Below, piece by piece: positions 33,848 through 38,856 of a stretch of 39,882 bases of DNA. How positions within the stretch are numbered: position 1 is the stretch's first letter; each line of letters begins with the position of its first letter. The position numbers and the translations under genes were made by a program. Below the pieces are notes generated by a model that saw nothing but the letters and a program-made list of their open reading frames with translations, was not told where the DNA came from and made no database searches. This stretch comes from a delta proteobacterium ML8_F1 (GTDB lineage Bacteria; Bacillota; Clostridia; Peptostreptococcales; Acidaminobacteraceae): assembly GCA_002029975.1 (NCBI GenBank), contig LQBE01000041.1, forward strand, positions 43,236 through 83,117. The letters are read 5' to 3'.

Positions 33848-34852
33848 ATGAAAAGACCCCGTCAAAAAACCTATCCACTGATGAGAACCCCTATCCACAC
33901 TTTGACAAACCTCTCCCGGGAGACCGGGGTGGAGCTTTTAATCAAACGGGACGATCTCAACGGATTTGGTTTTGGAGGCAACAAACTGAGAAAGTTGGCC
34001 TATCTGGTGGAGGAGGCCAAGGACAAGGGTGCCACGGTGCTTTTGACCTACGGAGGCGTTCAGACCAATCATGGCCGGATGACTGCCGCCGTGGCAGCCT
34101 CTGAGGGTTTGAAGTGCTGTATTGTTCTAATGGGGGAAGAGCCCGAGGAAAGAACGGGGAATCTTGTCCTGGATGGCATGTTCGATGCGCAGCTGGTCTA
34201 TGTCGGTGCTGATGAGTCCCTTGAGCAGGTCACCCGGGAGGTTATGGACCGGTACGAGGCAAGTGGAGAGCAGGTCTATGAAATTCCCTTGGGAGGGAGC
34301 AACAGCCTCGGTGTTCTCGGATATTTTGATGCGGCCCTTGAAATCCAGGAGCAACTTCAAAGACCGGTCGACTACCTGGTTCATGCCTACGGTTCCGGGG
34401 GTACCTATGGAGGGCTGTATCTTGGAAGCCGCGTTCTTTCAAACCCCTTTGAGGTCATGGGGATGAATGTCCTGTATCCTCCTTCTGAGCGACAGAAGCT
34501 CATTGACTCCCTCATGCCAGTCCTCAGGGAAGCCAATGAGCGGTTCGAACTGGGGGTACAAATCAGGGAAAGCGACTTCAATATTACCATGGATACGGTG
34601 ATGGAAGGCTATAACCTCCCGGACAAAAGAACCCAGTCCACAGTGCTGAGGGTGGCACGAAAGGAAGGAATTGTTCTGGATTACTGCTATACGGGCAAGG
34701 CTTTCAGTGGCATGCTTCAAAAGATAGAAACCGGCGAGATTCCCAAGGGGTCACGGGTTCTTTTCCTGCACACCGGCGGTTCTCCCGGCATTTTCAGCGA
34801 GGGTCACCTTGAGGCGATGAAGCCCCGCTTCTCAGGAGGAGGGTCAAAGTGA
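33848..34852 (+). CDS. dcyD: D-cysteine desulfhydrase / ACC-deaminase family PLP enzyme
   Basis: 334 residues of fold-type II PLP enzyme. Lys46 in FGGNKLRKL is the PLP lysine, GVQTNHGR (about 69-76) is typical of the ACC deaminase/D-cysteine desulfhydrase family, and LHTGGSPGIFS closes the phosphate site. It releases sulfide, ammonia and pyruvate from D-cysteine or a related amino acid; exact substrate is inferred. AAGGAGG precedes ATG 33848. Its stop overlaps the rlmH start (GTGA), so rlmH is translated from the same message. Confidence 0.88.
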   Translation: MKRPRQKTYPLMRTPIHTLTNLSRETGVELLIKRDDLNGFGFGGNKLRKLAYLVEEAKDKGATVLLTYGGVQTNHGRMTAAVAASEGLKCCIVLMGEEPEERTGNLVLDGMFDAQLVYVGADESLEQVTREVMDRYEASGEQVYEIPLGGSNSLGVLGYFDAALEIQEQLQRPVDYLVHAYGSGGTYGGLYLGSRVLSNPFEVMGMNVLYPPSERQKLIDSLMPVLREANERFELGVQIRESDFNITMDTVMEGYNLPDKRTQSTVLRVARKEGIVLDYCYTGKAFSGMLQKIETGEIPKGSRVLFLHTGGSPGIFSEGHLEAMKPRFSGGGSK

Positions 34853-35327
34853 ACATCACGGTTCTCTGCGTAGGGTCCGTCAAGGAAAAATATCTCGTTG
34901 ACGGGATCAAAGAGTATCAAAAGCGCCTTGGGAACTACTGCAATTTGAGTATCCTGGAAGTGAAGGACGAGAAAACCCGGGAAAACCTATCCCCCAAGGA
35001 GGCGGCAATCATCCAAGACAGGGAGGGGGAGAGGCTCTTGAGCAGGATCAGACCCTCCCAGTATATGATTACCCTGGAAATAGAGGGAGAACAGATTTCC
35101 TCAGAAGCCTTTGCCAGACAACTCGAGGGTTTTCCCCATCAGGGTGTTGCCGACATTGTTTGGTAATCGGTGGGTCCCTGGGGCTGTCTTCCAGTGTTAA
35201 AAAAGCCTCCCAGGGGACTCTATCCTTTTCAAAGATGACCTTTCCCCATCAACTGATGCGAATGATACTCCTTGAGCAGATCTACAGGGCGTATCGGATT
35301 ATGCGCGGTGAGCCGTATCATAAGTGA
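34849..35327 (+). pseudogene. rlmH: 23S rRNA pseudouridine(1915) methyltransferase, frameshifted
   Basis: The first 105 codons match RlmH and end at TAA 35164-35166. Reading one base back at about 35158-35161 restores the rest: VIGGSLGL (SAM-binding knot motif), then the conserved [12 protein letters not shown] and RGEPYHK-stop at 35325-35327. With one base added the gene would be exactly 159 codons, the usual RlmH length. The break is a one-base loss near GTTTGG: a real mutation or a sequencing error. RlmH methylates the pseudouridine at position 1915 in helix 69. The GTG start at 34849 has GGAGGAGGG upstream. The 3' end doubles as an integration-site repeat. Confidence 0.9.
35307..35327 (+). 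repeat. attL-like repeat at the 3' end of rlmH
   Basis: GGTGAG followed by CCGTATCATAAGTGA, the last codons and stop of rlmH. It matches 18 of 21 bases at 37577-37597. The equivalent sequence in Staphylococcus is the SCC attachment core. AGTGACTTCA (35323-35332) has a gapped inverted copy near the other end (37559-37569). Confidence 0.75.
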
Positions 35328-35389
35328 CTTCAGATATGTTTAGGTTTCCAGGGCATCAGGCCACCTCCTGTTTTCTCCTTAAAAAAGAA

Positions 35390-35422
35390 ATATAAAAAGC
35401 TCCAGTTTATTAACTAGAGCTT
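35390..35422 (-). terminator. leftward terminator inside the island
   Basis: AAGCTC-C-AGTT (35397-35407) pairs with AACT-A-GAGCTT (35412-35422), one mismatch and a 4-base loop. On the minus strand it is followed by TTTTTATA. It would end the fragmented gene upstream of it. Confidence 0.7.
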
Positions 35423-35507
35423 AATGTCCATTCGTAATATACTTCAGATGATATCTATACAAATATCATATTTATAAATCATATAGTATCCCCTATGAAA
35501 ATATATT

Positions 35508-35646
35508 TTAGTTGCCTTGTTTCGATGTTCCATCCGTGAACACAATAGATTTAACCGCATACTCAAAGTTAAGATCATCATACGCTGTATTATACAATTT
35601 CATATCTTCATCTGAAAACTGATTAGGGTCAAAGTATAAATCGTCC
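35508..35646 (-). pseudogene. C-terminal fragment of a broken leftward gene
   Basis: The open minus-strand frame encodes about 45 residues containing LYFDPNQFSDEDMKLYNTAY and ending SIVFTDGTSKQGN-stop (35508-35510). It has no start and runs straight into the istB remnant. The family is not recognised. It is probably the 3' part of the gene whose 5' part lies at 35880-35995. Confidence 0.55.
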
Positions 35647-35838
35647 ACTATCTTCTGTTCTCAGTATCGAGAACAGGGTTGGTACAATCAGCTTGGCGGG
35701 GATGATGCTCCACTTGCAGATGCAATTCTCGATCGCATAGTGCACGATGCCTACAAGATCAATATCGAAAGCATAGACCCAAGCAGAGACATTTCCATGC
35801 GTGAAGTCTATGGCCTTGATCAAATAAACAATGAGTAA
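35647..35838 (+). pseudogene. istB: IS21-family IstB remnant, C-terminal end
   Basis: A 63-codon frame, open at its left end, reads TIFCSQYREQGWYNQLGG, then LADAILDRIVHDAYKINIES and ends with TAA 35836-35838. This is the recognisable C-terminus of IstB, the ATPase helper of IS21 transposition. The ATP-binding part and all of istA are gone. The following 45 bases, with short inverted CCGGA/GTGGC blocks, look like the element end. The base composition is higher in GC than the surrounding island. Confidence 0.85.
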
Positions 35839-35879
35839 GCAGTGGCTCACGCCACTCCGGACCAGCGGCTCTGCCGCAC

Positions 35880-35995
35880 CGGTATATTCATTACCATCAT
35901 TATAATGCTTTGGATTATTTTTTATTTTTTCTTTTACATGATTAAACATTTCTTCACTAATTTCTTAATTACACTTTCATAAGATATATCCTTAG
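35880..35995 (-). pseudogene. N-terminal fragment of the gene split by the IS21 remnant
   Basis: Minus-strand sequence encodes KDISYESVIKKLVK in one frame and, after a one-base shift, MFNHVKEKIKNNPKHYNDGN in the next, and then meets the IS21 end at about 35880. The AT-rich, Lys/Asn-rich coding resembles the fragment at 35508-35646. Both are probably pieces of one lost gene. Family not recognised. Confidence 0.45.
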
Positions 35996-36092
35996 CTTAA
36001 GAATAGTCTTTTAACTGTTTAATCCGTCTTTTTAAATTATTTTCCGTTTTTTATTAGTGTCAATTTTTATCTTTAAAGGAATATCTTACCTA

Positions 36093-37355
36093 TCAATTCT
36101 TTAAACAACCTATGGGTACTACTATTACTCCATCTTTTCTTTCGTAAGCGTATCCAGTTCCTGTAACTATCATTAGAAATGATGGTTCCTTTATTTTATT
36201 AGTATCTATTATTTTTTTTAATTTTATCAAATTCTCTGAAGCTTCATCTATTAAGTGGTTTCCTAATTTAACCTCTACTAATCCCCATCTTCCATCATCT
36301 AAGTGTATTACTGCATCTGCTTCTAGTCCTGTATTATCCCTATAATGAAATACTGATCCTCCTATAGCTTGTGTATATACTCTTAAATCTCTAACAACTA
36401 GGGATTCAAATAGTAACCCAAAGGTATTCATATCAAATATTAAATCCTCTGGAGATGCTTTTAACATGTTTGCTGCTATGGCAGGATCTATTAAATGTCT
36501 TTTGTTAGAAGTTCTTATTATAGTCTTCGATCTTAATGTTGGACTCCATGCTGGTAAATCTTCTATTACAAATAGTTTTTTCAATGCATCTAAATAGTCT
36601 GATAAGGTATTTCTATGAATTGAAGAATTATTAACTTTAACATCACTTAATATGGTTGAATCTGATGCTGTTGATGAAGTATGTCTTGCTAAAGATCTTA
36701 GAATACTCTTCGTAGTTTCTTCATTTCGTTTTACTCCATCTACAGTTTGAATCTCTGAAGTTGCAATTATATCACAGTATCCTTCTATTGATCTCATAGA
36801 TGCTTTTAAAGGCTTGTTAATATTTTCTGGCCAGCCCCCTTTTATTATAAGCTCTGCTATATCTTCAATGTTTAAATTTGAAGTTCCATCTATTTCATTT
36901 TTTCCATCAAATAAATCTTTCAGGCTTACATTACCATTTGAATCTAATGATTCAAATAAAGACATAGTTCTCATCTTGATTCGACTTATCCTGCCTGCCC
37001 CAGAGTGTGATATTTTACTTTCATCAACTGTAGTGGATCCTGTCAAGATATAAAGTCCAGTTTTATTTTTCATATCTACATCAAATCTTACAGAATCCCA
37101 CAGTTGTGGAGCCATTTGCCATTCGTCAATCAGTCTTGGTTTTTCTCCTTCTAGTAGTTTTGATGGTTGTATGTTTGCAAGAGTTAAATAAGATTCTTTT
37201 CTGTCAGGGTCTTGCATATATAAAAAACTTCTTGCTATTTGTTTTGCAGTAGTAGTTTTACCACACCACTTTGGTCCAGTTATTAGAACTGCACCAAATG
37301 CTTCTAGTTCATATTTAATTACTTTATCCATAATTCTATTAATATAATCTTTCAT
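36093..37355 (-). CDS. AAA ATPase with DUF4143 domain
   Basis: About 420 residues. The ATPase has Walker A GPKWCGKT (about 27-34), Walker B RLIDEWQ and a sensor-like LTGST. The C-terminal DUF4143 region holds GLEADAVI and WGLVEVK, an arrangement (D...ExK) like PD-(D/E)xK nucleases. The frame opens at 37367, but ATG 37355 is better placed after GGTG. The cellular role of this family is not known; it is common in mobile or variable loci. The gene is complete, very AT-rich, and is the only intact gene of the island. Its promoter region carries a 23-bp repeat array. Confidence 0.88.
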   Translation of the reverse strand: MKDYINRIMDKVIKYELEAFGAVLITGPKWCGKTTTAKQIARSFLYMQDPDRKESYLTLANIQPSKLLEGEKPRLIDEWQMAPQLWDSVRFDVDMKNKTGLYILTGSTTVDESKISHSGAGRISRIKMRTMSLFESLDSNGNVSLKDLFDGKNEIDGTSNLNIEDIAELIIKGGWPENINKPLKASMRSIEGYCDIIATSEIQTVDGVKRNEETTKSILRSLARHTSSTASDSTILSDVKVNNSSIHRNTLSDYLDALKKLFVIEDLPAWSPTLRSKTIIRTSNKRHLIDPAIAANMLKASPEDLIFDMNTFGLLFESLVVRDLRVYTQAIGGSVFHYRDNTGLEADAVIHLDDGRWGLVEVKLGNHLIDEASENLIKLKKIIDTNKIKEPSFLMIVTGTGYAYERKDGVIVVPIGCLKN

Positions 37356-37404
37356 ATATATCACCATCTCTATATTATCAGAATGTACAATTATCTACAA
37401 TTAA

Positions 37405-37496
37405 ATTATGCAAATTGTAATAATTCTATTGTGCAAGTTATAATAATATTATTGTGCATATTGTAATTATTTTATTGTGCATATTGTAATTTTAAA
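37405..37496. repeat. four 23-bp tandem repeats upstream of the DUF4143 gene
   Basis: Units start at 37405, 37428, 37451 and 37474, exactly 23 bases apart. The core is ATT(G/A)TGCA followed by TTGTAAT or a close variant. A weaker fifth unit may begin at 37382. A minus-strand promoter for the ATPase (TTGTAG, 17 bases, TAATAT) lies just downstream, so the repeats fit operators or binding iterons. Confidence 0.85.
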
Positions 37497-37519
37497 TATT
37501 TAAATTATAAGTTGTTTTA

Positions 37520-37558
37520 AATACCAGTACAATTCTTAGAATCATACTGGTATTATTT
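37520..37558. other. strong hairpin near the right end of the island
   Basis: AATACCAGTA (37520-37529) pairs with TACTGGTATT (37545-37554), with a nested ATTCT/AGAAT pair. It is followed by ATTTTG on the plus strand. It could be a terminator or a structured end of the mobile element. Confidence 0.6.
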
Positions 37559-37576
37559 TGAAGTACACTATGTTAC

Positions 37577-37597
37577 GGTGAACCGTATCACAAGTAA
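37577..37597 (+). repeat. attR-like copy of the rlmH 3' end
   Basis: GGTGAA followed by CCGTATCACAAGTAA. It differs from 35307-35327 at three positions, all transitions, and all silent in the rlmH frame (GAG/GAA, CAT/CAC, TGA/TAA), so it still encodes GEPYHK-stop. No further rlmH sequence lies upstream of it. Confidence 0.75.
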
Positions 37598-38127: not shown

Positions 38128-38145
38128 ATGATAAGGAGACTGACG

Positions 38146-38856
38146 ATGAAAAAAATTATTGTTGAGAGAGATTTCTGGGAGATATTCCCTGAAGCCAGGA
38201 TTGGAGTCCTGGTGGCAAGGGGGCTGGACAACCGGCTCAGGGATGGTGAAATCTATGAAGAGATACTCAAGGACGCCCAGAAAGAAGCCCTCAGGTACCT
38301 TGAGGCTTCAGAATTCACTTTGAATCCGGTGGTCAGAGACTGGCGGGAGGCCTTCAAAAAATTCAAGACAAAGAAGGGGGCCCGGGCTTCCATTGAGGCC
38401 TTGCTCAAGCGGGTCGTCAAGGGGAATCCCATTGGGACAATCAACCCGTTGGTGGACCTTTACAATGGCGTATCATTGACTTACGGCCTGCCCGTTGGAG
38501 GAGAGGATATCGACTGCTTTCAAGGGGATATCCGTCTGACCAGAGCCCGGGGAGACGAAGTGTTTGTTCCCCTTGGAGAGTCGGAAAATTCACCCCCCTA
38601 TGAAGGGGAGGTGGTCTACAAGGATGAAGCCGGAGCCATATGCCGCTGTTTCAACTGGCGGGAGGCGGAGCGGACCATGCTGACAGAATCCACTGTCAAT
38701 GCCCTGCTGATTATTGAAATACTGGACTTTGCCAGTCTTGACACCATGAACGCAGCCCTTGCAGCCCTTTGTGAAGCCGTTGAGGACCGCCTGGGGGCAC
38801 AGACTTCGACAGCGGTTCTGGACCGGGACCACCCTGCTTATACCCTGTTGGATTAA
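38146..38856 (+). CDS. B3/B4 tRNA-binding domain protein (PheT-like)
   Basis: 236 residues carrying the B3/B4 domain found in the phenylalanyl-tRNA synthetase beta subunit, where it edits mischarged tRNA. The recognisable stretch is NPLVDLYNGVSLTYGLPVGGEDID (in parts at about 107-130). Stand-alone versions are common in Firmicutes, and their function, perhaps editing or hydrolysis of an aminoacyl compound, is unproven. The frame starts at 38128, but ATG 38146 has AAGGAG 7 bases upstream. It converges on the ABC ATPase across a shared terminator. Confidence 0.88.
   Translation: MKKIIVERDFWEIFPEARIGVLVARGLDNRLRDGEIYEEILKDAQKEALRYLEASEFTLNPVVRDWREAFKKFKTKKGARASIEALLKRVVKGNPIGTINPLVDLYNGVSLTYGLPVGGEDIDCFQGDIRLTRARGDEVFVPLGESENSPPYEGEVVYKDEAGAICRCFNWREAERTMLTESTVNALLIIEILDFASLDTMNAALAALCEAVEDRLGAQTSTAVLDRDHPAYTLLD

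Follow-up and report, generated by a model that had tools for sequence, protein, structure and literature searches.

The window analysed here is the whole 39,882-nucleotide stretch at positions 43236-83117 of contig 41 in the 2.38 Mb genome (designated G000) of delta proteobacterium ML8_F1, a clostridium placed by GTDB in the family Acidaminobacteraceae. The locus under study is an island of 2.25 kb located directly behind rlmH, which probably is a small cassette similar to those of the staphylococcal cassette chromosome (SCC). The last 21 bases of rlmH (35307-35327) read GGTGAGCCGTATCATAAGTGA, and a second copy at 37577-37597 reads GGTGAACCGTATCACAAGTAA. These copies are identical at 18 of 21 bases and the three differences are all silent (both encode GEPYHK-stop), which confirmed the coordinates and counts given in an initial annotation of the window. 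With up to three mismatches allowed, this core was matched twice in the window, as compared to no matches in 100 shuffles, and twice genome-wide, both times at this locus. Outside of the core the copies were alike only at chance level (2/12 bases on the left and 3/12 on the right; 14/60 and 16/60 further out). Identity is lost abruptly at either edge of the core, so that no longer stretch of rlmH is duplicated in the distal copy. The direct repeats flanking the island carry TATCATAA and TATCACAA, and thus an attachment site (att) core like TATCATAA, as in SCC. As is also the case for SCC, the island sits at the rlmH 3' end with the end of the protein kept, and homology to the sole congener (G001) stops there.

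The distal copy is an attachment site and not a duplicated rlmH end, because it has its own left half (AAGTACACTATGTTACGG) without a counterpart in rlmH. In related genomes, most core copies other than rlmH ends have TAC directly to the left of the core, which rlmH does not have, and many of these copies are also flanked by two arms, one like AAAACCGCNGTTAC on the left and GCGGTTTT on the right. At the distal copy in the window, TAC is present and the left half is partial. Taken together, the left half of the distal site and the right half of the proximal one form a dyad matching at 13 of 18 positions (P ~5e-5 versus random window positions), as compared to 10/18 and 6/18 for the dyads of each site in place (6/18 for rlmH in situ). 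A dyad of this kind, made of the two outer halves, is what one would expect at the site carried by a circular element. In order to score sites, a position-weight model of the att site was trained on 52 array sites with the window excluded, and it ranked position 37577 first in the window (15.4) and 35307 second (9.9), with the next best at -17.6. The end arms of cassettes in relatives matched across the cassette at 7.60, versus 6.62 for random pairs. Pairing of the end arms within a site, as in integron attC, was rejected (6.86 within versus 7.60 across).

Between the two cores, GC content was 28-31% at 36001-37500 versus 44-55% in the nearest flank windows, and the description of this DNA as AT-rich therefore held. 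Most of the foreign content listed in the initial annotation was likewise recovered, namely the IS21 remnant, the ATPase gene, and the tandem repeats (Table 1). The split gene that it had placed around the IstB scrap is plausible, with no Pfam match to its pieces in the two frames tried. No recombinase genes were found inside the island by inspection of open reading frames (ORFs) and Pfam matches, as had been stated, and the island differs in this from SCC elements that carry ccr. The only Resolvase-family match in G000, a gene on contig 13, was rejected as a mobiliser, being a broken large serine recombinase in a genome with no CcrB match at 1e-40. The 23-nt repeats could possibly be an operator, and a 17-nt inverted repeat (88%) at 37520-37554, shortly before the distal att, is a possible terminator or operator. 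Judging from the company it keeps, the AAA_14/DUF4143 ATPase is perhaps a defence or conflict gene. Apart from the island, rlmH is itself frameshifted near 35160 (window 35150-35170), approximately 56 codons before its end, with Pfam SPOUT_MTase split over two frames (positions 1-100 in 34849-35166 and 101-154 in 35160-35327); either mutation or misassembly may account for the frameshift. Elsewhere in the family, paired rlmH matches lie side by side in three genomes of one genus (G007:C12, G055:C49, and G056:C97), and G005, G010, and G015 also have two.

Table 1. Coordinates of features at the rlmH locus (window positions) and of recombinases at related loci (L numbers)
Feature	Position	Strand	Basis or remark
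rlmH, host of the attachment site	34849..35327	+	Pfam SPOUT_MTase; frame broken near 35160
rlmH-proximal att core (GEPYHK-stop)	35307..35327	+	repeat search; right half presumably element-derived
Proposed SCC-like passive cassette (island)	35328..37576	.	AT-rich; bounded by two att cores; G001 homology ends at rlmH
Gene piece, apparently interrupted by IS21 scrap (by eye)	35508..35660	-	stop-to-stop frame
Frame with IS21 IstB C-terminal remnant	35623..35838	+	PF01695, E 4.3e-6, frame residues 6-49
Cargo gene, AAA_14 + DUF4143 ATPase, 424 amino acids, opposite to rlmH	36093..37367	-	Pfam
Four 23-nt tandem repeats, upstream of ATPase gene	37399..37490	.	mostly within stretch common to G008
Element-type left half of distal att, not in rlmH	37561..37578	+	13/18 dyad with proximal right half
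Distal att core	37577..37597	+	repeat search; 24-mer of TAC plus core exact in 25 other records
Chromosomal flank gene, B3/4 domain	38128..38856	+	also downstream of rlmH in congener G001
Large serine recombinases little like CcrB, near att	L078 8349-9887; L091 11771-13354; L092 10548-12032		

Cassette presence and absence at the rlmH core were compared among six genomes of the genus g53 (G162, G134, G196, G126, G121, and G138). The order behind rlmH is A then flank in G162, B (2.9 kb) then A then flank in G134, and C (1.3 kb) then A then D in G196, where the sequence ends inside D. For G126 and G121, D is directly at rlmH, and G138 has a different cassette (E). Parts shared by G162, G134, and G196 are mostly 94-95% identical. 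When G162 was aligned with G134 or G196, similarity reached as far as the final base of the rlmH core, apart from a few bases of core overlap, and was regained with A, whose alignment starts inside or at the G162 core; for other g53 pairs the alignment ended up to ~55 bases past the core. The form of the rlmH core follows the adjoining cassette, reading GTATCACAAGTAA beside A and E, GTACCATAAGTAA beside B, CATATCATAAGTAA beside C, and GTATCATAAATAA beside D, and these four core forms for five cassettes are what would be seen if the final rlmH bases came from the element. At the inner B-A and C-A junctions the core is degenerate and was not found at three mismatches. Additionally, G141 and G073 share 97.5% identity across 4.2 kb that reach close to rlmH, and 89% as far as its core, beyond which they have different arrays.

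Sites of the same kind are found well beyond this genus. The exact 24-mer of TAC plus core from the distal copy is present in 25 other Bacillota records of a genome collection, in hosts that include Paenibacillus, Bacillus, Neobacillus, Cytobacillus, Cohnella, Metalysinibacillus, Alkaliphilus, Romboutsia, and others. With P. pinistramenti among these records, the att site belongs to one sequence family with other rlmH islands of Bacillota. A degenerate core pattern was matched in 126 of the 393 genomes of the window's order (292 matches, many of them the rlmH ends themselves, versus 7 for a reversed control), with at least two copies in 60 genomes, at least three in 42, and at least five in 13. 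This pattern requires GRN as its first codon and misses rlmH ends of the NEPYHK or REPYHK type (G053 and G001), as well as degenerate distal cores such as B-A and C-A in g53. A stricter pattern was matched in 10 of 398 genomes in a phylum sample, the window's own included, and the system is therefore unevenly spread across the phylum. Same-strand runs of sites behind rlmH, with the rlmH core counted, reached six in G141, five in G115, and three each in G025, G110, and G125.

Array contents were surveyed at 42 loci picked for having sites or recombinases, the window's included. Neighbouring sites at these loci enclose 70 stretches of 0.3-9 kb (median 2.2 kb), most of which lack a ccr-like gene. 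Pfam analysis of 142 array-stretch ORFs (100-900 amino acids) returned 191 families, and the 25 listed include AraC (8), AAA_14 (6), Cass2 (6), MerR (4), AbiEii (3), and DUF4143 (3), and PADLOC at 1e-10 identified AbiE, PDC-S01, and others. Similar DNA occurs in different genera: G025 and G073 are 88.0% identical over 1953 bp starting exactly at a site in both, and G101 and G129 are 94.1% identical over 1465 bp with the end 15 bases from a site. For other stretches, such as one of 1878 bp that is 96.8% identical between G105 and G096, no site was detected at the ends in the second genome. Within the window's own family, a single island of 4.16 kb in G009 encodes an AAA ATPase and a subtilase, and its distal core is identical to the window's. 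The ATPase and the subtilase-like protease in this island (L064 8156-11603) overlap by a few bases, and the pair is possibly a two-gene defence module.

Two further properties of the arrays were considered and set aside. Cassette ORFs are co-directional with rlmH in 134 of 150 cases, and so are 57/58 upstream ORFs and 88/118 beyond the arrays; orientation bias was rejected as an integron-like mark, given that cassette ORFs do not exceed the local background in this respect. Sites farther from rlmH were not generally more decayed (core score versus rank, rho -0.16, P = 0.40, 31 sites). Site variants were also seen. Those in Bacilli (L124, L126, L127, and L111; Paenibacillaceae and Cohnella) have another arm, AAAACTTGCCGTTACAGACAGCGC and similar, with several per locus in some. 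A second element-end class, TAG-GGACATACGG... / ...GTATGTCCC, is found at L076 7199, L080 3352, L095 6259, and L132 1949; in G036 it bounds an element holding a Ccr-like gene, and the members of this class are possibly autonomous.

Large serine recombinases related to CcrB are located near these sites. Six array-adjacent enzymes have CcrB as their best NCBIfam match, at 279-447 bits (equivalog cut-off 900), and the domains of array-linked recombinases (Resolvase, Recombinase, and Zn-ribbon) are those of serine recombinases. Searching the 393 genomes with the CcrB model resulted in 43 rows at 1e-60. All of the 15 top rows (at least 278 bits, a line set after the fact) have a core site no more than 6.3 kb away, and two of these are 44 and 89 bp from the site, directly behind rlmH on the other strand. 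Among the 28 lower rows, 12 were examined and none had a core site near. At least two sites are present in 12 of 13 genomes with a match of at least 300 bits, versus 60 of 393 genomes overall (P 7e-10). In a tree built from 30 recombinases, the 18 rows with an att site nearby cluster, their label requiring 2 changes versus 9.7 when shuffled (0 of 500 shuffles as low). A recombinase in these related clostridia probably moves the cassettes. The 3' ends of the Ccr-like genes at L077 1307-2980 and L068 5088-6755 overlap an att site.

Based upon these results, we consider the stretch between the two cores to be a small non-autonomous SCC-like cassette that was left by a Ccr-type insertion at rlmH and is now passive or decayed, with a probability of roughly 0.84. 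That this particular cassette arrived by such a route, and that Ccr was the enzyme, is what we infer from the site anatomy and from the relatives. A CcrB-like large serine recombinase would have joined the att of a circular cassette with the last rlmH codons; as it is not encoded in G000, it would presumably have acted in trans or in an ancestor. Insertion would give rlmH its element-supplied final bases at the proximal core, and the former chromosomal right half would be displaced to the distal core, behind the left half of the element. The cassette would later have taken the IS21 scrap. The initial annotation had already proposed an SCC-like island at the rlmH 3' end, and this proposal is supported by the sites, the arrays, the recombinase linkage, and the g53 insertions. 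It had also suggested searches of the relatives, which located CcrB-like enzymes adjoining such sites and other cargo between the same repeats in many genomes. The comparison of rlmH flanks that it called for succeeded in g53, where cassettes lie exactly at the rlmH core, and yielded no empty site in the window's own genus.

Several observations weigh against this interpretation. In G001, the sole congener, unrelated DNA occupies the place where an empty site was sought: the sequences cease to be homologous at window position 35325 and are so again from 38147, and G001 has one REPYHK copy. (This interval between rlmH and the B3/4 gene, L054 3730-12651, holds a 2973-aa frame that by eye is like an S-layer or repeat surface protein, and a transposase remnant, also by eye.) The right arm of the island is not the usual GCGGTTTT, and the window att score of 15.4 is just below the lowest of the left-out array sites (17.2 to 86). 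The gapped inverted repeat that the initial annotation had placed just inside the island ends is weak by itself, its outer arms not being significant in an ungapped arm test (P = 0.13); the dyad that the element ends form around the core is significant. No CcrB-like match (NF047343) was found in G000 at 1e-40. For the recombinase linkage, the row next below the 278-bit line has 277.7 bits, and the distance to an rlmH end (NEPYHK type) is 12.5 kb for G053, among the 12 unlinked rows. Sites are also found 0.4, 6.3, and 0.4 kb from three recombinases with little likeness to CcrB (73, 75, and 143 bits), so that the arrays contain other recombinases as well and the link to CcrB-like enzymes is not exclusive.

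The distribution of the cargo gene belongs with these adverse points. Relatives of the ATPase at 1e-60 are present in 66 of 393 genomes. Among the 29 non-self loci, taken with flanks of up to 1.5 kb, att sites are present at that of G004 alone, a member of the same family, so that the idea of an att-linked ATPase cargo was rejected (1/29). The G004 ATPase, 52% identical and with one stop, has an att site on either side and belongs to an array behind rlmH. The closest DNA is in G008 (84% identical over 36091-37471, most of the repeats included), where no att site was found at a locus whose contig ends 276 bases upstream. The gene is moreover transcribed against rlmH, unlike 134 of the 150 array ORFs. 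Given that it mostly occurs without att sites nearby, the ATPase also travels otherwise; it is a general traveller, sometimes carried by such cassettes.

These cargo data bear most directly on the idea of separate events, by which an old cassette was reduced to its distal att and later received unrelated insertions (IS21 and a mobile ATPase gene). We regard this as unlikely. It would account for the 84% identity of the ATPase and repeats to G008 DNA without a detected att site, for the unusual orientation of the ATPase, and for the IstB scrap as a later insertion. On the other side, the dyad of the two outer halves surpasses that of each site in place (13 versus 10 and 6 of 18), which fits one element bounded by both and says nothing about the timing of the cargo, and an ATPase of the same family is carried in the att cassette of G004. 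Less probable still is an arrival of the island by homologous recombination or transformation from a carrier chromosome, with no recombinase in this lineage. The lack of a Ccr-like gene in G000 at 1e-40 and the alignability of the tRNA-to-rlmH side with the G001 chromosome are both in keeping with such a transfer, but it covers the last step only, and the att anatomy would still need site-specific insertion elsewhere. That the rlmH 3' end was duplicated in place without involvement of a recombinase, a possibility that the initial annotation had itself raised, hardly seems credible as the source of the second GEPYHK-stop. In its favour, the repeat is indeed exactly the last rlmH codons with silent differences only, and two partial rlmH matches do lie on one contig in family members G007, G055, G056, G010, and G015. 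Against it, identity ends at the core edge (2/12 on the left), array att sites have the same TAC on the left and the same dyad, the exact 24-mer recurs in the 25 other records, and the cassette differences between relatives fall right at the core.

Extending the SCC-like cassette interpretation to the relatives, we tentatively propose, at somewhat less than even odds, that clostridia of this order run an integron-like cassette system based on Ccr-type serine recombination. Small non-autonomous cassettes, each with half-sites and holding one to a few genes, would be stacked behind rlmH, entering beside rlmH and decaying outward, with a CcrB-like enzyme that few array elements encode serving all of them in trans, and the island in the window would be a worn member. 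Staphylococcal methicillin resistance, which SCC carries, is what this element is mainly known for. With att sites, a recombinase family, and an rlmH target of the same kind in clostridia, SCC would be one branch of an old, Bacillota-wide cassette system, and the clostridial arrays (up to six listed sites behind one rlmH, the rlmH core counted) would be simple models for cassette movement in trans by a large serine recombinase. These arrays could also show where SCC cargo originates.

Chromosomal integrons are arrays of small cassettes with recombination sites between them at one fixed place, and the clostridial arrays are similar in consisting of small, site-separated cassettes at a fixed place. 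They differ in that the array-linked enzymes are serine recombinases, as opposed to the IntI tyrosine integrase and attC sites of integrons (IntI was not searched for), and in a strand bias that is not above the local background.

Likeness to SCC, as far as the available passages of two papers describe it (PMC6222049, PMC10061031), includes insertion at the last rlmH codons, att cores with TATCA[TC]AA, an element-supplied half-site, CcrB/CcrC-like recombinases (here in the window's relatives), and tandem composite elements. Differences are that the host is clostridial, as opposed to the staphylococci or near kin that carry SCC, that the island is 2.25 kb without ccr or mec, and that the clostridial array recombinases score 279-447 bits against a CcrB equivalog cut-off of 900. 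Non-autonomous pseudo-SCC elements also lack ccr genes.

The Enterococcus cassette chromosome (ECC), as presented in excerpts of PMC6222049, shares the rlmH site; it has inverted repeats and ccrAB, its att sites are ~50 bp with TATCATAA, and a remnant with attL and attR only has been reported. ECC elements are 21-78 kb (PMC6222049, same excerpts), whereas the clostridial stretches have a median of 2.2 kb and most are without a ccr-like gene. According to the accessible parts of PMC10061031, most PolA-SSB primase islands of Bacillota are downstream of rlmH with large serine recombinases, their second ends were located by the last ~12 bp of rlmH, and some are composite; the records with the 24-mer, 25 in all, include P. 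pinistramenti, which that paper names. The clostridial examples in those parts (C. difficile and C. perfringens) are in ssrA and not in rlmH, and the same passages do not describe cassette arrays free of primase or recombinase. SCC-like rlmH islands are already published for Bacilli. For clostridia, no report of rlmH cassette arrays was found in the titles and abstract starts of open-licence PMC literature (preprints outside this scope), and such arrays with Ccr-like enzymes look like an undescribed variant.

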